This document shows, one piece after another, positions 24,944 through 38,157 of a stretch of 39,337 nt of DNA. The notes under the pieces are model-generated. The model ran no database searches and was not told where the DNA came from. It was given only the letters and a program-made list of their open reading frames with translations. Source of the stretch: Polyangiaceae bacterium (GTDB taxonomy: Bacteria; Myxococcota_A; Polyangia; Polyangiales; Polyangiaceae). Where the stretch lies: NCBI GenBank assembly GCA_020846005.1, contig JADLEQ010000106.1:1-39337 (forward strand), given 5' to 3'. A program made the position numbers and the translations under genes. Each line of letters begins with the position of its first letter. Positions within the stretch are counted from its first letter, which is position 1.

Positions 24944-26770
24944 ATGGCTGAGCGCGTGATCGGCATCGACCTCGGGACGACCAACTCCTGCGTCGCCGTG
25001 ATGGAAGGCGACGCCCCCGCCGTCATCCCCAACCGAGGCGGGTACAAGACGACCCCCAGCATCGTCGCGGTGACCGAGGCGGGGAAGCGGCTGGTCGGAC
25101 ACATCGCGAAGCGCCAGGCCATCACCAACGCGGAGAACACCGTCTACGCCGCGAAGCGACTCATCGGGCGCAAGTTCAACTCGCCGCAGGTGAAGAACGC
25201 CATCATGACGTGCAGCTACGGCATCGTGGAGGGCCCGCACGGCGACGTACGCATCAAGCTCCGCGACAAGACGTACAGCGTCCCCGAGATCAGCAGCATG
25301 GTCCTCCAGGAGATGAAGGTCATCGCGGAGGACTACCTGGGCGAGACGGTCAGCAAGGCGGTCGTCACCGTCCCGGCCTACTTCAACGACAACCAACGCC
25401 AGGCGACCAAGGACGCGGGCGCCATCGCGGGGCTGGACGTCATCCGCATCATCAACGAGCCGACGGCCGCGTCGCTCGCGTACGGCTTCGGCAAGGGCAT
25501 CGACAAGACGGTCGCGGTCTACGATCTCGGAGGCGGGACGTTCGACATCAGCGTGCTGGAGATCGGCTCGCACGGAGTCTTCAAGGTGATCGGCACCACG
25601 GGTGACACGTTCCTCGGCGGCGAGGATTTCGACGCCCGCATCATCGACTGGCTGGTCCAGGGCTTCCTCGATGAGCACGACGTCGACCTCCGGCAGGACC
25701 GCATGGCGCTCCAGCGGCTGCGCGACGCGGCGGAGAAGGCGAAGTGTGAGCTCTCCAGCGTCCGGGAGACGGAGGTGAACCTCCCGTTCATCATCTCCGC
25801 CGGGCGGAACGAGGCGCTCCACCTGCAGCGTGTGCTCTCGCGCGACACCCTCGAGTCCCTGTGCGAGGACCTCGTCGAGCGCACCATCGACATCTGCCGG
25901 CAGGCGCTGGTCGACGCCAAGCTCGACGTGGACGAGATCGAGGACGTAGTGCTCGTGGGAGGGATGACGCGGATGCCCGCGATCCAGCTCGCCGTCGGGG
26001 ACTTCTTCCAGCGGGAGCCCAACCGCGGAGTTCACCCCGATGAGGTCGTGGCGCTCGGCGCCGCGATCCAGGGCGCCGCCCTCGTCGAGGACAAGCACGA
26101 GATGATCCTGCTCGACGTGACGCCGCACGCGCTGGGCATCATGACGTTCGGCAGCTACTTCGAGGAGCTGATCCCGCAGAACACGACCGTCCCCACCAGC
26201 CGCACCAAGGTCTTCACGACGAGCCGCGACAACCAGACGGCGGTCAAGATCCTGGTCATGCAGGGCGAGAGCAAGAAGGCGGACGAGAACGAGCTGCTCG
26301 GCGAATTCATCCTGACGGGCCTCCGGCGCGCCCCGAAGGGTCACGTCGAGATCGAGGTGACGTTCGAGATCAACACGGACGGCATCGTCAGCGTCAACGC
26401 GAAGGATCTCGAGACGGGGCAGGCGCAATCGATCCAGGTCACCGCCACGAGCGGCCTCACCCACGACGAGGTGAAGCAGATGATGGCGAGCGCCGCCGAC
26501 TACATGGTGGAGCGCCGCGGCGACGAGCAGTTCGAGGCCGCCCGTCAGGAGGCGGAGACGCTCATGGCGCAGGTCGACGCGCTGTTCCCCGACGTGGAGC
26601 GGACGGTCGGCGGGGCCGACTTCGGGCGAGACGCCGTCCAGAAGGCGAAGGCGACCATCGAGCGCACCCGCGAGGCGATCCAGCGGAAGGACACCGCCAC
26701 GATCAAGGAACAACTCGAGACCCTCAGCCGGACGGAGCGGATGTTCCGCGGCGTGATCGGGCGGAGCTGA
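24944..26770 (+). CDS. dnaK: Hsp70 chaperone DnaK (paralogue)
   Basis: This 608-residue protein starts at the ATG at 24944 behind GGGAAAGG. The ATPase domain opens with IGIDLGTTNSCVAVMEG and includes VTVPAYFNDNQRQATKDAG, IINEPTAASLAYGFGKG, DLGGGTFDISVLEIG and VGGMTRMPAIQ. The DDVTP-like LLDVTPHALGI begins the substrate-binding domain. The lid is short and ends RMFRGVIGRS, without the acidic tail of housekeeping DnaK. Context is also unlike the grpE-dnaK-dnaJ operon: a TPR J-protein lies upstream and a protein sharing that J-protein's small module lies downstream. Myxobacteria carry several DnaK paralogues, including SglK of social motility; whether this is that type cannot be decided here. 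Confidence 0.92.
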   Translation: MAERVIGIDLGTTNSCVAVMEGDAPAVIPNRGGYKTTPSIVAVTEAGKRLVGHIAKRQAITNAENTVYAAKRLIGRKFNSPQVKNAIMTCSYGIVEGPHGDVRIKLRDKTYSVPEISSMVLQEMKVIAEDYLGETVSKAVVTVPAYFNDNQRQATKDAGAIAGLDVIRIINEPTAASLAYGFGKGIDKTVAVYDLGGGTFDISVLEIGSHGVFKVIGTTGDTFLGGEDFDARIIDWLVQGFLDEHDVDLRQDRMALQRLRDAAEKAKCELSSVRETEVNLPFIISAGRNEALHLQRVLSRDTLESLCEDLVERTIDICRQALVDAKLDVDEIEDVVLVGGMTRMPAIQLAVGDFFQREPNRGVHPDEVVALGAAIQGAALVEDKHEMILLDVTPHALGIMTFGSYFEELIPQNTTVPTSRTKVFTTSRDNQTAVKILVMQGESKKADENELLGEFILTGLRRAPKGHVEIEVTFEINTDGIVSVNAKDLETGQAQSIQVTATSGLTHDEVKQMMASAADYMVERRGDEQFEAARQEAETLMAQVDALFPDVERTVGGADFGRDAVQKAKATIERTREAIQRKDTATIKEQLETLSRTERMFRGVIGRS

Positions 26771-26833
26771 GACCCCGCCGATGCGGCTGCCCCGTTGCTG
26801 CCAGGGCCCGACGGCCGAGCGCAGAGGAGCGCG

Positions 26834-27706
26834 ATGAGCGGCTCGAGTCGTCCGAGCGTGCGACCGAGCGGTCCCCCCACGGACGAGCTCGACACCTCGT
26901 GGGACGACGAGCCCGTCCCCGAGCTCGGCTCGTTCCTCCCGCCCGAGCTCGAGGCCGATGAGCTGGACCGGGTCACACAGATCCCGAGTGTCCCGCCCGA
27001 GGAGCTCGCGCGGCGAATGTTCGCGAAGGCGCGCTCGTCGCCGCCTCCCGCGGCGGCGCCGCTGTCGCCCGGGCTCCCCGCGAGCGGGCTCGAGCTCGAT
27101 GAGGTAGGCACGCAGACGCGGGGGAGGATGCGGGCGGTCACGCCGCGGGGCCGGCTCTCGCCCACGGGCATCGAGCTCGACGACCTGAGCCTTCAGCCGA
27201 CCTTGGACTCCGCGGCGACGCTGGATTTCCCGGACGAGCTCGGCTTCGACCACGCCTCCCCGCGCAGGGAGGCGCCCGCCACCGCCCCGCCCTCGTTCGT
27301 GACGCGCAAGCCGGATCCGCCGGAGGGCGACCCGGCCATCCGCGACATGAAGGACCGCTACGCGATGGGCGACTACAGCGGCGCGCTGGTGGTGGCCGAG
27401 GGGATCCTCGAGACCCGCCCGGAGGACGCCGACGCGATCCGCTACGCCGGGAGCTGCCGCGAGGTGCTCATGCAGATGTACTCGGCGCGCCTCGGCGACT
27501 CGAAGCAGATCGTTCGCGTCGCCATCCCGCCCGACCAGGTCCGCTGGCTGTCACTGGACCATCGCGCGGGCTTCCTGCTCTCGTTGGTGGACGGCCTGTC
27601 GACGATCGAGGAGCTGCTCGACATGAGCGGGATGCCCCAGCTCGACGCGCTCCGGCTCCTGTACATGCTGCTCGAGCAGCGCGTGATTGCGCTCGAGCCC
27701 CGCTGA
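26834..27706 (+). CDS. Protein with TPR-like segment and C-terminal winged-helix-like module
   Basis: This 290-residue soluble protein starts at the ATG at 26834, with AGGAG 5 nt upstream. The first ~160 residues are disordered, acidic and Pro-rich, with TSWDDEPVPELG near the start and short LELDE/IELDD motifs repeated (about 93, 116). A TPR-like pair follows (about 172-205, RYAMGDYSGALVVAEGIL). The last ~45 residues (GFLLSLVDGLSTIEELLDMSG and onward) align without gaps to the N-terminal module of the J-protein at 23395. It lies 63 bp after dnaK, suggesting a client-selecting or regulatory partner of this chaperone pair. Function is inferred. Confidence 0.7.
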   Translation: MSGSSRPSVRPSGPPTDELDTSWDDEPVPELGSFLPPELEADELDRVTQIPSVPPEELARRMFAKARSSPPPAAAPLSPGLPASGLELDEVGTQTRGRMRAVTPRGRLSPTGIELDDLSLQPTLDSAATLDFPDELGFDHASPRREAPATAPPSFVTRKPDPPEGDPAIRDMKDRYAMGDYSGALVVAEGILETRPEDADAIRYAGSCREVLMQMYSARLGDSKQIVRVAIPPDQVRWLSLDHRAGFLLSLVDGLSTIEELLDMSGMPQLDALRLLYMLLEQRVIALEPR

Positions 27707-27714
27707 ACGAGCCG

Positions 27715-29754
27715 ATGTCGGCAGCCGGCCAGCGCCGACCGCGCCGCGATCCGGCGCCGTGCCGCGCCGCCTGGCGCGTGGGCGCAGCGCTGCTCGGGCT
27801 CGCAGCCGCCGCGACGAGCCCCGCTTCGCGCGCAGACAGCCCGAATCGCTCCCCGGCGGCGACCGCGATCCAGGCGCCTGGCCCCCGCTACGACGACGAC
27901 GCCTCGCTCCGCGAGCACGCGGCCGCCGTCGCGAGCTACGACCTGGCCGTCCGACTCGACCCCGTGGTCCACGACCTCCGCGGCGCGGGGACGATCCGGT
28001 GGACGAACGCGAGCGACCTCCCGGCCGGGGAGATCTTCGTGCAGCTCTACCTGAACGCCTTCAAGAACGATCGCACGCTCTTCCAGCGCTCCCCCTTCGC
28101 GCGGGGACGGAGCGGTCGGCACGCGGCGGAGTGGGGCTGGATCGACGTGACGCGGCTGGTCGCGCCGGCGCTCGGCGGCGCCGATCTCTGGCGCGGCGCG
28201 GATCTCCACCCGGGCGGCGACCTCGAGGACGAGACGCTCGTGCGCGTGCCGCTCCCGCGCCCGGTCGCGCCGGGTGAGGCGATTACGTTGGAGTTCGAGT
28301 GGACCGCGCGGCTGCCCCGGGTCGTCGAGAGGACAGGGCACGCCGGTTCGTTCCACCTGGTGGCCCAGTGGTTCCCCAAGCTGGCGCGCCGGGAGCCCGA
28401 CGGGCGCTGGAGCGGCGCGCCGTTCCACCCGCACGCCGAGTTCCACGCGGACTTCGGCGACTACGACGTCGCGCTCGATGTCCCGGCGCAATTCCGCGTC
28501 GGCGCGACGGGGAGCCCGGTGGACGAGCGCGTCGAGGGCGGCCGGCGCCTCGCCCGGTACTCCGCGCGCGACGTACACGACTTCGCCTGGGCGGCCTGGG
28601 ATTCCTTCGTCGAGCGCGCCGAATCGATCGACGGCGTCGCGGTGCGAGTGCTGCACCCTCCGGGCCACCACGCGAACGCCGAGCGGACGCTCGCAGCGCT
28701 CCGTCACGCGCTGCCGTGGCTGAGCCACCGGTTCGGCAGATACCCTTACCCCGCCCTTACTGTGGTGCACCCGCCGGCCGCCGCCGCCGACGCCGGGGGC
28801 ATGGAGTACCCGACGCTCGTCACGACGGGGGGCCCGTGGTGGCTGCCGGCGGGCGCACGCTGGGTGGAGGCGGTGACGGTCCACGAGCTCGCGCACCAGT
28901 GGTTCCAGGGATTGGTCGCGACCGATGAGCGCCGCTGGCCGTTCCTCGACGAGGGGCTGACGACGTGGGTCGAGCAGCGCGCGCTGGGCGATCGCTTCGG
29001 CGAGGCGTCGCTCCTCGAGCTGGGGGGGCTGGCCGTGTCGGACACCGCGGCCCGGCGCGTGTTCGCGATCCGCCACGGCCTGACGGATCCCATCGCCCTC
29101 CCGGCGAGCGGCTTCGTGGACTTCGCCAGCCTGGGCGGCCTCGCGTACGCCCGCACCGCCACGGTGCTCGAGACGCTCGCGCGGGTGTACGGTGAGCGCG
29201 AGCTCTTCCGCGCGCTCGGGCGCTACGCCCGCCGGCATCGCTTCGAGCACCCGGACCCGAGGCACCTCGTCGCCGCGGTGCGCGAGTCGGCGGGGGACGC
29301 CGCGGCCGAGGCGCTCGAGGCCGCCCTGTTCGACCGCGGGTGGGTCGACTACCAGCTCGCGCGCCTCGACGTGGCGCCCGAGGTGGCGCCGGGAGGGACG
29401 TTCGATGGCGCCGAGGGCCGCGTGGTGCGCGAGCGGGGCCAGCCGACGAACCGCTGGGTCGGGCGCGTGGTCGTTCGTCGCCTCGGCACGCTGCGGCTCC
29501 CGGTCGAGATCGAGCTGCGCACTGCCGACGGCGGGCGCGAGCGCCGCGCGTGGGACGGCGCCACGACCTCCACGGTGCTCGAGTGGACGGGCTCGAGCCC
29601 GCTCGTGAGCGCCCACGTAGACCCCGACCATCGTGTCCTCCTCGACCAGGACCTCGTGAACAACCTGCGCCGCGCCGGCCCGGCGTCGACCCCGCGCGTG
29701 CGTGAGCGCGCGACGCTGGTCGCCGCGCTCCTGCTCGCGCTGCTGGAGCCATGA
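27715..29754 (+). CDS. M1-family zinc metallopeptidase, exported
   Basis: This 679-residue protein has a basic N-terminus and hydrophobic segment (about 20-38, WRVGAALLGLAAAATSPASRA) resembling a signal peptide. An N-terminal beta domain of the M1 type is followed by the substrate-binding GGMEYP (361-366) and the zinc site HELAH (His390, Glu391, His394), with the third ligand Glu413 in LDEGLTTW. It is expected to be an aminopeptidase acting outside the cytoplasm. The gene starts 8 bp after the previous stop, and its own stop overlaps the next ATG, so it belongs to the same transcript. All catalytic residues are present. Confidence 0.9.
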   Translation: MSAAGQRRPRRDPAPCRAAWRVGAALLGLAAAATSPASRADSPNRSPAATAIQAPGPRYDDDASLREHAAAVASYDLAVRLDPVVHDLRGAGTIRWTNASDLPAGEIFVQLYLNAFKNDRTLFQRSPFARGRSGRHAAEWGWIDVTRLVAPALGGADLWRGADLHPGGDLEDETLVRVPLPRPVAPGEAITLEFEWTARLPRVVERTGHAGSFHLVAQWFPKLARREPDGRWSGAPFHPHAEFHADFGDYDVALDVPAQFRVGATGSPVDERVEGGRRLARYSARDVHDFAWAAWDSFVERAESIDGVAVRVLHPPGHHANAERTLAALRHALPWLSHRFGRYPYPALTVVHPPAAAADAGGMEYPTLVTTGGPWWLPAGARWVEAVTVHELAHQWFQGLVATDERRWPFLDEGLTTWVEQRALGDRFGEASLLELGGLAVSDTAARRVFAIRHGLTDPIALPASGFVDFASLGGLAYARTATVLETLARVYGERELFRALGRYARRHRFEHPDPRHLVAAVRESAGDAAAEALEAALFDRGWVDYQLARLDVAPEVAPGGTFDGAEGRVVRERGQPTNRWVGRVVVRRLGTLRLPVEIELRTADGGRERRAWDGATTSTVLEWTGSSPLVSAHVDPDHRVLLDQDLVNNLRRAGPASTPRVRERATLVAALLLALLEP

Positions 29755-30641
29755 TGACCTCGCTCCAGTCGCTCCGGCGGCTCGCGTGGCTGGCCACCGG
29801 GCTGTGGTCGTGGCGGCTCGCCGCGGCGCTGATCGTCGCCGCGCCGTGGGTCGACCTGGCGCGCGCAAGCGGCGCAGCGGCGCACGCCGACGGCGACGCC
29901 GCGCTCTTCTCCAGCGGCGGCCTGGTGCTGCTGGATGTCCTGCACCGCGCCGAGCCGGGCCTCCGCGCCGCCGCGTGGACGACGGCGGCCGCGTTCGCGC
30001 TGCTCTCGCTCGCCGGCGCGCTCCCGCTGGCGGCCGTCCTCGCAGCGCTCGCGACGCGGAGCCGCCGCGGCGCCTTCGCGTGGCTCGCGGAGGGCACCGC
30101 GGCGTTCCCGCGCCAGATCGCGATCACGGCGGGAGCGGGCGTGGGCCGCGCGCTGCTCGCGCTCGCGGCGGCGTGGGCGGCGGTCACCGTGGGCGCGTCG
30201 TTCGCGACGCCGGACGAGCGGCACGCCGATCTCGGCCGCGTCGCGATCCTGGCGCTCGGCTTCGCCGGCGGCGCGGGGGTGGGCGTCGTGGCGGACTGCG
30301 CTCGTGTCGTCAGCCTCCGCGACGGGCTCGGGCCCGTCGCGGCGACGCGCCGATCGCTCGGGGCGCTCCGCGCAGGCGCGTGGTGGGTGGTGCGCGCGTG
30401 GTCCTGGCGGGCGGGCGTCACCGCAGCGCTGAGCGTGGCCGCGCTGGTCGCGGTGGCCCGCGTCGACGTGTCGCGGCCGGAGCCGTGGCGCCCTGCCGCC
30501 GCGTGGCTCGCCGGGCAGCTCTGCCTGTGGGCGATCGCCGCGCTCCGCGTGTCCTGGTTCGCGAGGCTGTTCGAGCTGACGGCCCCCGAGCCCCCGGCGG
30601 GAGGTTCGCCTCAGGCGGCGTCGCCCGCGGCTGACTGGTAG
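29751..30641 (+). CDS. Polytopic membrane protein of unknown function
   Basis: This 296-residue protein starts at an ATG overlapping the peptidase stop (ATGATG). Roughly five to six hydrophobic segments are visible (for example about 20-36, 80-105, 122-148, 165-185, 222-240, 252-270). There are no motifs of a known transporter or enzyme. Short cytoplasmic loops are Arg-rich. Coupling to the M1 peptidase suggests a shared envelope role. The last 31 bp overlap the convergent glycogen-synthase-like gene. Confidence 0.65.
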   Translation: MMTSLQSLRRLAWLATGLWSWRLAAALIVAAPWVDLARASGAAAHADGDAALFSSGGLVLLDVLHRAEPGLRAAAWTTAAAFALLSLAGALPLAAVLAALATRSRRGAFAWLAEGTAAFPRQIAITAGAGVGRALLALAAAWAAVTVGASFATPDERHADLGRVAILALGFAGGAGVGVVADCARVVSLRDGLGPVAATRRSLGALRAGAWWVVRAWSWRAGVTAALSVAALVAVARVDVSRPEPWRPAAAWLAGQLCLWAIAALRVSWFARLFELTAPEPPAGGSPQAASPAADW

Positions 30642-31960
30642 AGCTGGAGCATGCGCCGGGCCGGGCGATCCCACGAGCAGTCCTGACGCATCACGCGGCG
30701 GCGCAGGCGACCCCACGCGGGCGTGGCGCACGCGGCGCGCGCCCGCGCCACGGCGCCGAGCAGCGCCTGCGCCGTGGGCGCCTCGAAGACGAACCCCGTG
30801 CCCGTCTCGAGCGCGACGTCGCAGTCGACCACGCCCTCCGCGAGCGCGCCGACGCCGTGCACGATCGGGACCGCGCCGTACCGCTGCGCGACCAGCAACG
30901 GCCGCGCCGCGGGCGCCGCGAGCGGCGACAGCAGCGCGAAATCCGCGGCCGCCATCGCCCGCCGGAGCTGCTCGTCGCTCGCGCGCGCCACCCGCGCCAG
31001 CTCGTGCGCGTGGCGCGACTGCGCCTTCGCGAACGCATCCGACGCGGGGAGCTCACCGGCGGAGCACACCACCAGCGTGAGATCGTGGCGGAGCAGGCGC
31101 TCGGCGGCCTCGAGGACCAGCGCGGCCCCGTCGCTCGCGCCGCCCTCCAGGACGGCGACGCAGAGGGGGCGATCCAGCTCGAGCTCGAGGCCGAGCTCCC
31201 GCAGGAGCGCCGCCTTGCCGCGCCCCTTCCCCGCAGCGTCCTCGGCGTCGAACCGGGCGACCAGCCCCGGGTCCGTCGCGGGATTGTAGAGCGAGAAGTC
31301 GAGGCCCTCCGGCACCACGCATGACGGCACCTCGGCCTCGGCGAGCGCGGCGGCGAGCGGCGTGTCCGCGCCCGCGCCAGCGAGTGACCGCTCGAGCCCG
31401 GCCGACGCGAACGTCACCACGTCGGCGCGCGCCGAGCCGCGGACCACGGCCTCCCTGCCAGCGGCGTCCGCGCCGAGCCGATCGTCGTGGAGCGAGAGGA
31501 CGCGAGGCGACCGGTCGCCCACCTCCGAGAGCGCGAGCAGCGCGCGCGCGCCCTGCCAGCCGTGCGCGTGCACGACGCCGGGGTCCCGCCCGCTCGAGGC
31601 GCGCTCGCGCACGAGCGCAGCGACCGCGCGGCCGAAGCAGACGGCGCGCTCCGCCTCGTCCTCGGGGCGGTCGGCGCGCTCGCGATCGTCGAGCAGCCCG
31701 CCACCCAAGAGCGTCAGCACCACCCCCGACGCGAGCTGCGCGTCGTACGGCATCGCCTCCCCTCCTCCCGCGACGGGCAGCGGCGTGATCCGCCGCGCGA
31801 GCAGCAGCCCCGCCGACTCGAACGCCGGGTGGCGCGGCACGACGAGGTTCACGTCGTGCCCGAGCTGCCGGAGCGCCTTGGCGAGCTCCCCGATCGGGAG
31901 CGCCGCGGGAGACCGGCGAAGATACGGCGCCACCTCGGACGCAACCATGACGACATCCAT
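30611..31960 (-). CDS. Glycogen/starch synthase homologue (GT5) with lost catalytic motifs
   Basis: From the ATG at 31960 this is 449 residues. The GT5 fold is visible: MDVVMVASEVAPYL at the N-terminus, VVHAHGWQGARALL where GlgA has HAHDWHAG, and PEGLDFSLYNPATDP matching the GlgA NGID-WNPATD block. Yet the ADP-glucose-binding KxGGL is replaced by RRSPAAL (15-21). The R/K of the SRLxxQKG motif are replaced in VAVLEGGASDG. The Glu motif near EPCGLTQ is replaced by LSPLAAPAARPLL. The C-terminal GGLADTV is GALAEGV. Folding seems kept while catalysis seems lost, so a regulatory or binding role is more likely than glucan synthesis. It overlaps the end of the upstream convergent gene. Confidence 0.75.
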   Translation of the reverse strand: MDVVMVASEVAPYLRRSPAALPIGELAKALRQLGHDVNLVVPRHPAFESAGLLLARRITPLPVAGGGEAMPYDAQLASGVVLTLLGGGLLDDRERADRPEDEAERAVCFGRAVAALVRERASSGRDPGVVHAHGWQGARALLALSEVGDRSPRVLSLHDDRLGADAAGREAVVRGSARADVVTFASAGLERSLAGAGADTPLAAALAEAEVPSCVVPEGLDFSLYNPATDPGLVARFDAEDAAGKGRGKAALLRELGLELELDRPLCVAVLEGGASDGAALVLEAAERLLRHDLTLVVCSAGELPASDAFAKAQSRHAHELARVARASDEQLRRAMAAADFALLSPLAAPAARPLLVAQRYGAVPIVHGVGALAEGVVDCDVALETGTGFVFEAPTAQALLGAVARARAACATPAWGRLRRRVMRQDCSWDRPARRMLQLYQSAAGDAA

Positions 31961-32344
31961 CGCGCCCCTGCTACCACGTCCCCCGCCCCCCGTCGGCGAA
32001 TCTGCCCCCCGAGCCCGAGCTCGAGCCCCAAGCCCGAACCCCAAGCCCGAGCCCCACGCCGTCGTCCCCTCCCCTCGCGGGCGCGCTGCCCCCGGCCCCC
32101 GCCTCTCCGTCGCCCTCCGTCCCGCCTCCGCCCTCCCCCCTCGCGCTCGCCCCGCCCTCCCTCGCGCCCCCGCCCTCCCGCTCGCGCTCACCCTCCCCCG
32201 CTCGCTCGCGCTCTCCCTCGCCCCCGCCCTCCCTCTCGCCCCAGCCCCCCCCTCTCGCCCCCGCCCCCCCTCTCGCCCCGCCCTCCCACTCGCGCTCGCC
32301 CTCTCGCCCGCGCCGTCCCCCTTGTCCCGCGCCCCGCCGCGGCT
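31961..32344. other. Pyrimidine-rich low-complexity spacer
   Basis: About 385 bp without a credible gene. On the plus strand it is overwhelmingly C and T, with degenerate repeats of the ctcgccc / cccgccctccc type around 32100-32330 and cccgagccccaa near 32015-32060. Such asymmetric tracts can form triplex or G-quadruplex structures on the purine strand. The argB promoter and 5' leader must lie in or near this stretch, but I cannot point to them. Confidence 0.7.
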
Positions 32345-33253
32345 ATGGCTACGCGCCCCATGCGCGACCCCATCGAGAAGGCCGCCGTCCTCCACGAGGC
32401 GCTGCCGTACATCCGCCGCTTCCACAAGAGAACCTTCGTGGTGAAGTACGGCGGCCACGCGATGGTGGACGAGACGCTGAAGGAGAGCTTCGCGCGCGAC
32501 GTGTGCTTGCTGCGCTACGTCGGGATCCAGGTGGTCGTCGTGCACGGCGGCGGGCCACAGATCGACGATCTGCTGTCCCGCCTGGGCATCGCCCCCGCTT
32601 TCGCGGCGGGGCTCCGCGTCACGGACGAGCGCACGATGGAGGTGGTCGAGATGGTGCTCGGCGGCAAGGTGAACCAGGACATCGTGGGGCTCGTCTGCTC
32701 GCACGGTGGCCGCGCGATCGGCCTCTCCGGCAAGGACGATCACTTCATTCGGGCCCGGCCCGAGGAGCCCGCGCGCGGCGTCGGCCCGGATGGCGAGGAG
32801 ACACTCGTCGATCTCGGGCGGGTGGGCCGGGTCGAGAGCGTGGATCCGACGATCGTGCAGCGCCTGATGCAGGAGGGCTTCATCCCGGTGATCGCCCCGA
32901 TCGCCGTCGACGAGGCCGGGCGGGCGCTCAACGTCAACGCCGACACCGCCGCCGCGGCTGTCGCGGCCGCGCTCGGAGCGGCCAAGCTCGTCCTGATGAC
33001 GGACGTGGCCGGCGTGAAGGACCGCGACGGCAAGCTGCTCTCGTCGGTGCGAGCGCAGGACATCGGCGAGCTGATCGCGACCGGCGTGGTGACGGGCGGG
33101 ATGATCCCGAAGCTGCAGTGCGCGCTGGAGGCGACGCGCGGCGGCGTGGAGAAGGTCCACGTGATCGACGGCCGCGCCCGCCACGCCCTGCTGCTCGAGA
33201 TCTTCACGGACCGCGGCGTCGGGACGGAGATCCGTCGCGCCGGCGCGGGCTGA
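32345..33253 (+). CDS. argB: Acetylglutamate kinase
   Basis: This 302-residue cytoplasmic enzyme phosphorylates N-acetylglutamate in arginine synthesis. Visible motifs: FVVKYGGHAM (phosphate-binding Lys), VVVVHGGGPQI, the substrate loop GLRVTDERTMEVVEMVLGG, LNVNADTAAAAVA, and KLVLMTDVAGVKD with TGGMIPKLQCAL near the C-terminus. Length and residues are normal. The ATG at 32345 is used; an ATG five codons later is possible. It stands alone, with no other arg gene beside it. Confidence 0.95.
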   Translation: MATRPMRDPIEKAAVLHEALPYIRRFHKRTFVVKYGGHAMVDETLKESFARDVCLLRYVGIQVVVVHGGGPQIDDLLSRLGIAPAFAAGLRVTDERTMEVVEMVLGGKVNQDIVGLVCSHGGRAIGLSGKDDHFIRARPEEPARGVGPDGEETLVDLGRVGRVESVDPTIVQRLMQEGFIPVIAPIAVDEAGRALNVNADTAAAAVAAALGAAKLVLMTDVAGVKDRDGKLLSSVRAQDIGELIATGVVTGGMIPKLQCALEATRGGVEKVHVIDGRARHALLLEIFTDRGVGTEIRRAGAG

Positions 33254-33373: not shown

Positions 33374-33955
33374 TCATTCCTCGGGGAGGACCTCCTCGAT
33401 CGTCGGCGCGAGGACGACCACACGCTCGTTGCCCTCCTTCTTGACCGCGCCGGAGAGCGAGAACGTCGAGGTGGCCTGATCGCCGTCCAGATCGCCCTCG
33501 GCCGAGCACGTGAAGGTGCCGTTGTCGGCCGTGGGGTTCGCCGCAGTGTAGCCGTACATGTAGTACTGCGGATCGGCCATCGAGAACTTCACGCACATCC
33601 AGCCGGTCTCCTTGTCGCCCGCGGACCACTCGGACGGCTTCGACTGGTACTTCTTGCCCTCGATCGAGGTCTTCGCGGCGGGGACCTTGGCAGCCGCGGC
33701 GCCGCAGAGGCGGTTCACGATGCCCGTCGACTCGCCGAGGCCCATGACGGTCGCCGCCATGCCTTCACGGTTGAAGGAGCTGGTCGAGTCCTTCGCCATG
33801 CGGCCGAGCGCGTTGCGCGCCTCCGCCGTCTTGGCGTTGGTGATGTACTTGCGGACGCCGTAGATGGCGAGCGCGGCGAGGACGCCGATGATGGCGACCA
33901 CGATCATGAGCTCGACGAGCGTGAAGCCGCGCCGTAGCTTCTTGAGTGCGTTCAT
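33374..33955 (-). CDS. pilA: Type IV major pilin-like protein
   Basis: This 193-residue prepilin has a 10-residue leader (MNALKKLRRG), then F-T-L-V-E-L and the hydrophobic helix MIVVAIIGVLAALAIYGVRK, the classical type IVa pilin start with Glu5. The amphipathic helix AEARNALGRMAKDSTSSF follows. The globular part has cysteines in NRLCGAA, GWMCVKF and FTCSAEG and the Asp-rich GDLDGDQATSTF near the end. The ATG at 33955 has AGGAG 5 nt upstream. A near-consensus sigma-54 promoter lies 50 bp before it and a terminator follows, so it is a single-gene transcript, as expected for a highly expressed pilin controlled by PilR. Confidence 0.9.
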   Translation of the reverse strand: MNALKKLRRGFTLVELMIVVAIIGVLAALAIYGVRKYITNAKTAEARNALGRMAKDSTSSFNREGMAATVMGLGESTGIVNRLCGAAAAKVPAAKTSIEGKKYQSKPSEWSAGDKETGWMCVKFSMADPQYYMYGYTAANPTADNGTFTCSAEGDLDGDQATSTFSLSGAVKKEGNERVVVLAPTIEEVLPEE

Positions 33956-34004
33956 GGGGACTCCTGGGTGAGCGCGGGCCGGGGCGGCTCGCGCTCGGCC
34001 TGAT

Positions 34005-34019
34005 GCAGCTCCCGTGCCA
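34005..34019 (-). promoter_or_regulatory. Sigma-54 (-24/-12) promoter of the pilin gene
   Basis: On the minus strand, TGGCACGGGAGCTGC followed by A matches the consensus TGGCACG-N4-TTGCW at every fixed position but one (C for the first T of TTGC), with exact GG-N10-GC spacing. Transcription would start near 33993, leaving a leader of about 38 nt with an AGGAG before the ATG at 33955. Control by a PilR-type activator is the expected arrangement. Confidence 0.8.
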
Positions 34020-34121
34020 CGAGCCCGCCGGCGGATCGCGCCGCAGGATCTCCGCGCAGAGCCGGCGCCGGTGCCGTGAATTGTCACGCCCCGGGGGGCC
34101 GCAGCGCCGACCTGCGGCACC

Positions 34122-36299
34122 TCACCACTCGGCTCCGGGGTCCGGCTCGAGCGCTCGCCGGCCGAGCTCGGAGAGCCCCGCCTCGAGCCGCGCGTAGTCC
34201 TCAGGCGCCAGCGCCGCGCGCGCCTCGGCGCGGCGCGCGAAGAGCAGCGCCTCGCCGAACAGCAGGCGTCCCGCGGGGTCGAGGCGCGCCGCGTGGGGCC
34301 TGAGGCGCCGTGCCGCTCGCAGATAGGCGCCGAGCTCGAGGTCCACCCGCGCGAGCGCGACGCTCCGCGCCGGCTCCGGCTCGCCGGCGGCCAGCGCCAC
34401 CGCACGTTCCGCGCCGCCGAGTCGCCCGCGGAGCTCGGCCGCCGCTGCGGCGACGGACGGCGCCGCCCCCCCGAGCTCGAGCTGCCGCGAGGCCGGGCCC
34501 CACGCGCCGCCGCGCGCCAGGGCGAGCGCGAGGTTGAAGCGAGCTCGAGGATCGACCAGCGCGGCGTCCGGCACGGCGGCCGCCATGCGGCGAGCTTCGT
34601 CGTCGCGGCCGAGGCGGGACGCGACGAGCGCGGCCGCGGGCGCGAGGTGGTAGCGCGCGTTCTCGACGTACGCCCAGAAGTGCGGCTCGCTCGGGCGCTC
34701 GAGGTCGAGATCGGCCGAGCGCCGGAGCGCACCCGGGGGCCGGCGCTCGACGAGCGCCACCTGCTCCTCGAGGAGCGCCGCCAACGCGAGGGCGTCCCCA
34801 TCCGCGAGGCGCCGGCCCTGCAGCTCGAGCTGCGCCAGGTACACGCGCGTCGGCTGCGCGAGGAGGTCCAGCCGCCGCGCCTCCGGAGCCATCGCGCGGT
34901 TCATCAGCGAGAACGCCTCGTGGACCTCGCCGCGGGCCTCCCGCTCCTGCGCCAGCCGGGCGAGGGCGCGCGGGTTCGCCGGGTTCACCTCGAGCTCCCG
35001 GGACCACATCGCCTCTTCGTCCTGGTAGTCCAGCGTGCGCACCCACACCACGCCCGCGCACGCCAGCGCGACGCTGCCCACGACCAGCCCGGCCAGCCGA
35101 GACCCGCGCCGCCACCGCTCGATCGGACCGGCCAGCGCGCGAGCGATCGCGCACGCCACGACGAACGATGGGAAGTAGAGGAACCGATCTGCCGTCGGCG
35201 AGTCGAAGCCCGCGTACACGACGTGCACGATGGGCAACACCGCCGCGAGCGCCGCCGCGAACATCCACGTCCGGACGCGATCCCGCCGCCACCCTGCGGC
35301 CACGCCCGCGGCGAGCGCCACGAGCACGAGCGCGCCGAGCGCCACGGACGCCGCAGGCAGCACCGGGCCTCCTCCCTCGTACGCGATCGGTCGATAGTGG
35401 AACGTCTGCGGCCAAGGCAGCAGCAGGCGCTCCGCGTAGTAGCCCGCGGTGAGCAGGACCCACGCCGCGTGGAGCGAGAGGGGCGGCGCCGCCTCGCTCG
35501 CCTCGGGCGGACGGAGCGGCATCCACGCAGCTCGCGCGGCGAAGTACGCCACGACGACGGCCCCCGTCGCCACCGCCGCTGTGCGCAGCCGCCTGGGAGC
35601 CGCACCGTCGCCCCTCACGTCGGCGAGCGCGGCCTCCACGAGCAAGAGCAGCGGGAGGCACACGGCGTACTCCTTGCTGAGCACGGCCAGCACCCACAGC
35701 CCCCCCGCGGCGAGCCAGCGCGCCGCCCCACGCGCCGCGGCCGCCGCGACCGCCAGCTCCAGCGCGCCGAGGAGGAACGCCCCCATCCACACGTCGGTGC
35801 GCCCGGAGATCCACACCACGTTCTCCGTCCGAGACGGGTGCACCGCGAAGACCAGCGCGACCAGGAGCGCCGGCCAGGCCGCGCCCGTCCACCGCCGCGC
35901 GACCCGCACCGCGAGCCACGCCGCCGCGGCGTGGACGACGACGTTGCCGAGGTGGAACGCCCACGCCGCGCCGCCGCCAGCGACCCAGGTCGCCACGTAG
36001 CTCGCGGTGACGACCGGCCGGTAGAAGCGGACCGACGCCGTCGGCGTGAGCCGCGCCGGCGTGTCCCACAGATCGGTGCGGAAGCACCGGCCAAGGAAGC
36101 TCCAGTCGTGCGCGTACGGGTTGTCGACGATGAGCGGCAGGTCGTCGAACACGTAGCCGGCCGCGAGGCTGGGCAAGAACGTGACGAGCGCGGCCGCGAC
36201 GACGATCGCCTCGAGGCGACCGGGGTGATCGAGCCAGCTCGACGCGGCGGGCGCGCCCACCGGAGAGTCCTTCGCGGCGGCCTCCGGCCCGCCGCTCAC
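34122..36299 (-). CDS. TMTC-like polytopic membrane protein with C-terminal TPR
   Basis: This 725-residue protein starts at a GTG overlapping the upstream stop (GTGA). The N-terminal half has about ten to twelve membrane segments. The first outer loop carries YVFDDLPLIVDNPYAHDWSFL (Asp52-Asp53), the acidic pair typical of GT-C-fold glycosyltransferases. AVHPSRTENVVWISGRTDVW and DSPTADRFLYFPSF also match the TMTC/DUF1736 pattern. The C-terminal ~300 residues are TPR-like (NPANPRALARLAQEREARGE). The GT-C relatives add sugars from lipid carriers. Adjacency to the pilin gene makes pilin or surface glycoprotein glycosylation an attractive but unproven role. Confidence 0.7.
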   Translation of the reverse strand: MSGGPEAAAKDSPVGAPAASSWLDHPGRLEAIVVAAALVTFLPSLAAGYVFDDLPLIVDNPYAHDWSFLGRCFRTDLWDTPARLTPTASVRFYRPVVTASYVATWVAGGGAAWAFHLGNVVVHAAAAWLAVRVARRWTGAAWPALLVALVFAVHPSRTENVVWISGRTDVWMGAFLLGALELAVAAAAARGAARWLAAGGLWVLAVLSKEYAVCLPLLLLVEAALADVRGDGAAPRRLRTAAVATGAVVVAYFAARAAWMPLRPPEASEAAPPLSLHAAWVLLTAGYYAERLLLPWPQTFHYRPIAYEGGGPVLPAASVALGALVLVALAAGVAAGWRRDRVRTWMFAAALAAVLPIVHVVYAGFDSPTADRFLYFPSFVVACAIARALAGPIERWRRGSRLAGLVVGSVALACAGVVWVRTLDYQDEEAMWSRELEVNPANPRALARLAQEREARGEVHEAFSLMNRAMAPEARRLDLLAQPTRVYLAQLELQGRRLADGDALALAALLEEQVALVERRPPGALRRSADLDLERPSEPHFWAYVENARYHLAPAAALVASRLGRDDEARRMAAAVPDAALVDPRARFNLALALARGGAWGPASRQLELGGAAPSVAAAAAELRGRLGGAERAVALAAGEPEPARSVALARVDLELGAYLRAARRLRPHAARLDPAGRLLFGEALLFARRAEARAALAPEDYARLEAGLSELGRRALEPDPGAEW

Positions 36300-37067: not shown

Positions 37068-37073
37068 TATGCT
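37068..37073 (+). promoter_or_regulatory. Candidate -10 element, leaderless rluA-type gene
   Basis: TATGCT ends 7 nt before the ATG at 37081; a second ATG at 37069 sits inside this hexamer. If it is the -10, translation must start at 37081, without a leader. No clear -35 is visible. Confidence 0.35.
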
Positions 37074-37080
37074 GGGCCAC

Positions 37081-38157
37081 ATGCGAGCGTTTCGGGCCCC
37101 CGGCGCCGACGGCCCCGCGGACCCCACCGCGCCGCCCGGGGAACCGGCGCGCCCGCCGGGCGTCGCGCCGGACGCCCTGCTGCGGGTGCTCAGGGTCCCA
37201 CCCGAGAGCGCCGGGCTGCGGCTGGACGTGTTCGTGCAGTCCCAGCTCCGGAACACCAGCCGCACTCGCTCCCGCGCGATCGTCGAGAACAGCGCGTACG
37301 ATCTCGAGGGGCGTCGGCTGCGCGCGAACGACCGCGTCCGCGCCGAGCAGCGCGTCGCGCTGTGGCGCCCGGCGTTCGAGGAGGCCGACCTCCGCCCGGT
37401 CCAGCTGCGGCTCGTCCATGAGGACGCGCACCTGCTCGTCGTCGACAAGCCGCCCCTCATGGCCGTGCACCCGACCGCGCGCCACCACTCGAGCACGCTG
37501 ATGAAGCAGCTCGAGCTCGCGAGGGGCGGCGAGCGGGTGTGGCTGATCCACCGGCTGGACCGCGAGACGAGCGGCCTCGTGCTGGTCGCGCGGTCGCCCG
37601 AGGCCGACCGCGCGTTCAAGCGCTTGTTCGAGGAGCGGTCCACGCGAGAGGCGACGTCGCTGGCCCACGCGTCGAGCGCCGGGGTCGCCAAGACGTACCT
37701 GGCGCTCACCTGGGGCGCCCCCTCCGAGGGCGACGTCCGGCTGCCGGTCGAGCCGGACACGGCGAACCCGCTCCGCGTCAAGATGCGGATCGCGGCGCCG
37801 GGCACCGGGCTCCCTGCGCGTACGAGCCTCACGGTCCGCGAGGTGCGCGGCCGCTATGCGCTCGTCGAGTGTGAGCTCCACACGGGCCGGCAGCACCAGA
37901 TCCGGGTGCACCTCGCGGCGCTCGGCACTCCGGTCGTCGGAGACAAGCTCTACGGCCCGGACGAGCGCCTCCTCGCCCGCGCGGCGGACGGCGAGCTCAC
38001 CTCGGACGACCTCGCGCGCCTCGAGCTCCCTCGCCACGCGCTGCACGCCCACCGGTACCGCCTGCGCCACCCGCTGACGGGCGAGGAGCTCGAGCTCGTG
38101 GCGCCGCTACCGGCAGATCTGGCGGATTTCTGGGGATCGAAGGGCGCCTCGGGCTGA
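37081..38157 (+). CDS. RluA-family 23S rRNA/tRNA pseudouridine synthase
   Basis: From the ATG at 37081 this is 358 residues; an in-frame ATG at 37069 would add four. A disordered Pro-rich N-terminus (~30 residues) is followed by an S4-like region (AGLRLDVFVQSQL). The catalytic domain has the active-site Asp in IHRLDRETSGLVLVAR, the structural motif AKTYLALTWG, and HTGRQHQIRVHLAALGTPVVGDKLYG. The family converts specific uridines in rRNA or tRNA. About 12 extra residues lie before the KTYLAL strand. The exact target (RluC/RluD/other) cannot be assigned from sequence alone. Confidence 0.9.
   Translation: MRAFRAPGADGPADPTAPPGEPARPPGVAPDALLRVLRVPPESAGLRLDVFVQSQLRNTSRTRSRAIVENSAYDLEGRRLRANDRVRAEQRVALWRPAFEEADLRPVQLRLVHEDAHLLVVDKPPLMAVHPTARHHSSTLMKQLELARGGERVWLIHRLDRETSGLVLVARSPEADRAFKRLFEERSTREATSLAHASSAGVAKTYLALTWGAPSEGDVRLPVEPDTANPLRVKMRIAAPGTGLPARTSLTVREVRGRYALVECELHTGRQHQIRVHLAALGTPVVGDKLYGPDERLLARAADGELTSDDLARLELPRHALHAHRYRLRHPLTGEELELVAPLPADLADFWGSKGASG

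Follow-up and report, generated by a model that had tools for sequence, protein, structure and literature searches.

A glycogen synthase homologue of Myxococcota with an erased active site at the chromosomal position of GlgA

We analyzed a 39,337-nucleotide stretch of DNA from a Polyangiaceae bacterium (the window, meaning the whole stretch) and found that it codes for a degenerate homologue of the bacterial glycogen synthase GlgA, here called pseudo-GlgA, which has an intact predicted fold and lacks most of its active-site residues. We consider it rather likely that pseudo-GlgA is a pseudoenzyme that arose by conversion of the positional ortholog of GlgA, not by duplication, and that it has kept an older, non-catalytic role, most likely a protein–protein contact.

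A full-length GT5 protein with an altered active site

The gene was assigned from its frame, from profile matches and from a structural model:

30611..31960, minus strand, pseudo-GlgA, degenerate GlgA/GT5 homologue of 449 aa

The frame runs from an ATG at 31960 to a stop at 30611, and its coding signature is clear (GC1/GC2/GC3 of 0.83/0.54/0.94). The protein scored 57.2 bits against the starch synthase catalytic domain PF08323, above the curated cut-off of 22.7, and 197 bits against TIGR02095 (glgA), below the family cut-off of 328. An AlphaFold2 model built with 36 orthologs as input had a pLDDT of 92.9 and a pTM of 0.91, and could be aligned with E. coli GlgA (2qzs; VIA) over 437 residues (Z of 40.2, 3.1 Å). 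The model shows the two-domain GT-B fold of GT5 enzymes, in agreement with a preliminary description of the sequence, which had recognized the landmarks of that fold. As modeled, pseudo-GlgA is a full-length GT5/GlgA protein with an intact fold.

The preliminary description also took the open frame as a sign of retention. Because the window is 75-78% GC and contains many spurious long ORFs, the open frame by itself counts for little; retention itself is upheld by the selective conservation of residues described below. We reject an assembly error or frameshift in pseudo-glgA, since 19 independent relatives can be aligned with the frame along its entire length.

The residues of E. coli GlgA that bind ADP-glucose include Lys15, Gly18, His161, Asn246, Arg300, Lys305 and Glu377 (PMC6210743; PMC7137382). 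The corresponding residues of the window protein are R15, P18, H158, E218, E272, D277 and A349, so that the histidine alone is retained. In full, the replacements relative to E. coli GlgA are K15 to R15, G17 to S17, G18 to P18, D21 to L21, D137 to G134, N162 to D159, N246 to E218, R300 to E272, Q304 to S276, K305 to D277, E377 to A349, C379 to A351, G380 to A352, L381 to R353, G400 to A372 and D403 to E375. The diphosphate site is reversed in charge. The loss is not total, because His161 (H158), Asp249 (D221) and Gly399 (G371) are kept. The preliminary description, which spoke of loss at all sites, needs correction for these three. We also considered that the catalytic pair might be intact at another place in the protein, and rejected this: the aligned stretch 216-442 contains no shifted motif.

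Relatives, chromosomal position and selection

Scanning 84,980 species genomes yielded 247 relatives, the best 80 of which come from named Myxococcota MAGs and strains, barring a few MAGs labeled only 'Proteobacteria', 'Deltaproteobacteria' or uncultured. The catalytic state of the loci is nearly bimodal, most having either all six core residues present or at least three lost. In a phylogeny from which the catalytic columns were excluded, the window protein, on a long branch and without a close relative, falls in a 20-member Myxococcota clade (support 100/100), itself nested inside a wider, otherwise intact set. All 20 members, window included, have lost the same sites, and we refer to them as the dead clade. 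The losses of the window protein are thus shared by its relatives. Homologues that regain the residues, named in the preliminary description as evidence against a pseudoenzyme, do exist, but all of them are positional orthologs that are more distant and lie beyond the dead clade.

Further degenerate copies are found in a deep clade, B (16 rows), in the group L076/L083/L091 and, partly, at L068. Forcing the dead clade together with L076/L083/L091 was rejected (AU p = 0.009), which argues for at least two independent catalytic losses. Forcing it together with clade B cost 14.7 lnL (AU p = 0.15), and we do not claim that those two losses were independent. The loci of clade B include L098, L103, L113, L101, L106, L107 and L108 (Myxococcota MAGs); here, the neighbors are a TIGR01777 oxidoreductase and TsaB in place of RluA and ArgB, and the KxGGL segment is wholly replaced. 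The loci L068, L076 and L083 are partly degenerate (K15R, K305Q/G, R300P, with Glu377 retained) and resemble intermediates on the way to a loss of catalysis. Four Polyangium loci (L039, L043, L047 and L069) code for a GlgA that is otherwise intact and carries G17T and N162D, both common in the dead clade; possibly, this is an early or permissive state.

Within the dead clade, Arg300 and Lys305 do not occur together in any member. Some replacements recur, namely K15R (63%), G17T (68%), L19A (79%), N162D (84%) and H361R (79%), as might be the case for a neofunctionalized glycosyltransferase that uses a different donor or acceptor and has a remodeled active site. We regard this possibility as quite unlikely. 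Positions 300, 305, 377, 381 and 382 show no shared replacement, neither the Glu377 site nor the positive phosphate clamp is left, and the recurring changes may in part reflect a GC-rich mutation bias.

The neighborhood of pseudo-glgA contains the following features:

24944..26770, plus strand, homologue of DnaK/Hsp70, in synteny across the dead clade
26795..27706, plus strand, protein of 303 aa, family unknown, in synteny across the dead clade
27715..29754, plus strand, M1-family peptidase, downstream neighbor in the dead clade and in one intact clade
29751..30641, plus strand, conserved downstream neighbor of 296 aa, convergent with pseudo-glgA
31961..32359, no strand assigned, short, C-rich, tandem-repetitive intergenic region between the divergent pseudo-glgA and argB
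32360..33253, plus strand, argB, acetylglutamate kinase, head-to-head with pseudo-glgA
37069..38157, plus strand, RluA-family pseudouridine synthase, ancestral upstream neighbor of intact and dead copies

Intact orthologs are mostly divergent from the RluA-family gene; in one intact clade, the M1-peptidase gene is found downstream as well. Members of the dead clade retain the RluA gene, mostly the M1 gene and, beyond it, the DnaK block; the gene for the 303 aa protein lies between those for DnaK and the M1 peptidase, in an order conserved across the clade. The 296 aa neighbor, the 3' end of which overlaps that of pseudo-glgA by 31 bases, is recognizable at several dead and intact loci. Pfam searches with the 296 aa and 303 aa proteins gave no match. 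Because these neighbors are shared with intact loci, the dead gene is the positional ortholog of the working GlgA and not a spare copy. In a quick tree that included the canonical Myxococcota GlgA paralogs, the ortholog group separated from them with an SH-aLRT of 99, and the dead clade had 100. The genes thus form an RluA-linked GlgA ortholog group by both chromosomal place and monophyly against the canonical paralogs, and of the 25 genomes of the family, 24 carry a GlgA of this type.

In the dead clade, 20/20 members have argB inserted between rluA and glgA, as against 0 of about 41 intact loci, and the link of argB to glgA persists where the M1 neighbor is missing (L041 and L050). It could be that pseudo-GlgA acts together with ArgB, its divergent neighbor and an enzyme of arginine biosynthesis, for instance as its regulatory partner or by way of a common promoter. 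As the whole block is syntenic, a single ancestral insertion suffices to explain the association, and clade B is equally dead and has no argB neighbor. We take the link as suggestive only, and a joint function as improbable. Between the two genes, the segment 31985-32340 is strongly C-rich, with tandem repeats of periods 6, 13, 18, 54 and 108, and opens spurious long frames on both strands. Beyond argB, the minus-strand ORF 33374-34801 has a type IV prepilin N-methylation motif at ORF residues 287-311; its true start is probably internal.

We compared the retention of positions that are at least 90% conserved in intact orthologs, grouped as active-site, GlgA-general and ortholog-group-specific. 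The window protein keeps 1/13 active-site positions, as against 37/64 other GlgA-general positions (Fisher p = 0.0015 for active-site versus other conserved sites) and 20/29 ortholog-group-specific ones (p = 0.0005). Over the dead clade, mean retention is 16% at active-site positions, compared with 77% at ortholog-group-specific positions and 73% at the other conserved ones (Mann–Whitney p of 3e-5 and 3e-6 for the active site against the second and third class, respectively). The active site has been selectively erased and the remainder of the protein kept. Besides Q387, A391, V406 and T417, the ortholog-group-specific positions (E. coli numbering) include A54, R56, L57, D407, L412, R437 and R467. 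These last seven show 95-100% conservation among intact, dead-clade and clade B copies, the window protein being an exception with Ile at position 57, and are found in 0-29% of canonical GlgA paralogs. It may be that the ortholog-group-specific residues are simply lineage-specific core residues.

Selection was estimated as dN/dS by the Nei–Gojobori method, with codon bias uncorrected. The ratio was 0.12 in the closest dead-clade pair (L035/L036) and 0.05-0.17 in close pairs of clade B, similar to the 0.04-0.21 found in intact pairs; a more diverged dead-clade pair gave 0.31, with dS above 1. Degenerate copies are under purifying selection where this is measurable, that is, among close relatives. 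Since the window protein has no near relative, selection on its gene is inferred from its clade, and the combination of catalytic loss with purifying selection is a measurement on relatives. The dead clade evolves faster than the intact set (mean column entropy of 1.60 versus 1.10 bits), which also fits a relaxed, weak role. Together with the highly variable active-site positions and the very GC-rich sequence, this faster evolution would suit a pseudogene in slow decay, the frame of which has stayed open because stop codons are rare at such a base composition. We disfavor decay and rate it the least probable of the explanations considered, given the low dN/dS of close degenerate pairs, the frames that are open in 20/20 members of the clade at a near-constant length of 441-484 aa, the 21 columns that are invariant across 36 diverse sequences and the high-confidence fold. 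The view of the preliminary description that the gene codes for a retained pseudoenzyme is borne out by the shared losses of the 20-member clade, by purifying selection where measurable, by synteny and by the fold.

Glycogen genes of the host genomes and the role of pseudo-GlgA

The glycogen pathway was followed genome-wide by family searches with score thresholds. The preliminary description had raised the matter of a second, intact glgA, and in these searches no canonical intact GlgA was found in the genome of the window; the one further GlgA-type synthase detected there is GlgM, the gene of which adjoins glgC on contig C81. This genome also codes for GlgE and GlgB (on C20) and for GlgP. Four of the eight dead-clade genomes searched (G000, G003, G014 and G022), the window's own among them, have GlgC, GlgM and GlgE, and G014 has an intact canonical GlgA besides. 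In the other four (G001, G007, G008 and G010), no GlgC, GlgM, GlgE or other GlgA was detected, which leaves them without a recognizable α-glucan synthase. G001, G007 and G008 also gave no hits above threshold for GlgB and GlgP, absence calls that rest on drafts 90, 96 and 97% complete, the same-genus G001 being at 90%. A genome from another family of the order (G033) has a degenerate copy and the same absence pattern. Overall, GlgC was present in 11/12 genomes with intact copies versus 7/15 with degenerate ones (Fisher p = 0.019, uncorrected for phylogeny). Pseudo-GlgA outlasts the glycogen pathway in some hosts, in which glycogen genes are not recognizable. In G010, GlgB and GlgP are present in a genome with no recognizable glycogen synthase, GlgC, GlgM or GlgE, and judging from this gene content its α-glucan pathway is broken or unusual.

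A glucan or nucleotide-sugar sensor, the role first put forward for the protein, fares poorly. In a wider form, a dead GlgA would bind α-glucan or a nucleotide sugar and regulate glycogen synthesis as a glycogen-associated scaffold or sensor, like plant STARCH SYNTHASE 5 (SS5), a noncanonical, nonenzymatic protein of the GT5 family that binds MRC and takes part in the initiation of starch granules in plastids (PMC10801857). Besides this precedent, the presence of GlgB, GlgP, GlgE and the GlgC–GlgM pair in the window's own genome, and the retention of Asp137 and His161 in most dead-clade members, speak for such a role. We nevertheless find it unlikely. The charge reversal of the phosphate clamp, in a clade with no member carrying both Arg300 and Lys305, argues against a nucleotide-sugar sensor; the persistence of the protein in the three genomes without hits for GlgA, GlgM, GlgB, GlgC or GlgP argues against a glycogen-bound scaffold as the general role. 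A partner role is favored, and sensing of a nucleotide sugar or glucan is less likely.

For the preferred reading, a converted GlgA ortholog that acts through protein–protein contact, we envisage that a second role, independent of catalysis, was present in the RluA-linked GlgA of the ancestor. This role would be carried by an ortholog-group-specific surface comprising E. coli positions 54-57, 386-391, 406-417, 437 and 467. Replacement or loss of the ADP-glucose route would then have freed the catalytic site from selection, after which the second role alone would have kept the gene, most likely with the protein as a scaffold or a partner subunit. The second function probably predates the loss, because A54, R56, D407, L412, R437 and R467 are near-invariant except in the canonical paralogs. 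The fuller proposal, that myxobacterial GlgA had a second, non-catalytic function before the loss, that at least two lineages independently dropped the active site and that the protein now serves cells without glycogen, is more tentative, and we hold it to be plausible at somewhat less than an even chance.

Related systems and meaning

Pseudo-GlgA resembles bacterial GlgA (GT5, TIGR02095) in its fold, in domain order and in many structural residues, and shares its chromosomal position with the intact myxobacterial GlgA; it differs in having lost 12 of 13 active-site residues and in falling below the TIGR02095 cut-off. GlgM, the α-maltose-1-phosphate synthase (TIGR02149, PDB 6tvp), has the same GT-B fold and, unlike pseudo-GlgA, retains the donor-site equivalents of R300, K305 and E377 (PMC7137382). 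By its description, plant SS5 is likewise a GT5 protein kept for a non-catalytic role. In contrast to SS5, pseudo-GlgA has both domains and occurs in bacterial hosts, some without recognizable glycogen genes, and the two would be independent in origin. In the GtfA–GtfB system, GtfB is a pseudo-glycosyltransferase partner subunit that is glycosyltransferase-like and has no catalysis of its own. Pseudo-GlgA could likewise work by binding a partner, although GtfB belongs to another glycosyltransferase family, with another substrate, and pseudo-glgA has no adjacent gene for an active glycosyltransferase.

No study of a bacterial GT5 pseudoenzyme or of myxobacterial GlgA was found in the literature searched, in which few subscription journals were covered, and the part of an α-glucan review that was covered (PMC11046441) contains none of the terms sought. 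GT5 pseudoenzymes are known from plants (SS5); the bacterial case appears new, a novelty that a literature search does not prove.

The usual origin of a pseudoenzyme is a spare duplicate. Here, it is the positional ortholog itself that seems to have undergone conversion, on more than one occasion, and that outlives its own pathway. This makes the group a natural experiment for a moonlighting role of GlgA, in which the features conserved in dead copies mark the second function. Some of the dead copies even score above the TIGR02095 cut-off, and many automatic 'glycogen synthase' calls in Myxococcota name proteins that are very probably unable to make glycogen. The group concerned consists of soil and water myxobacteria, in which the gene probably has a further, non-catalytic job.
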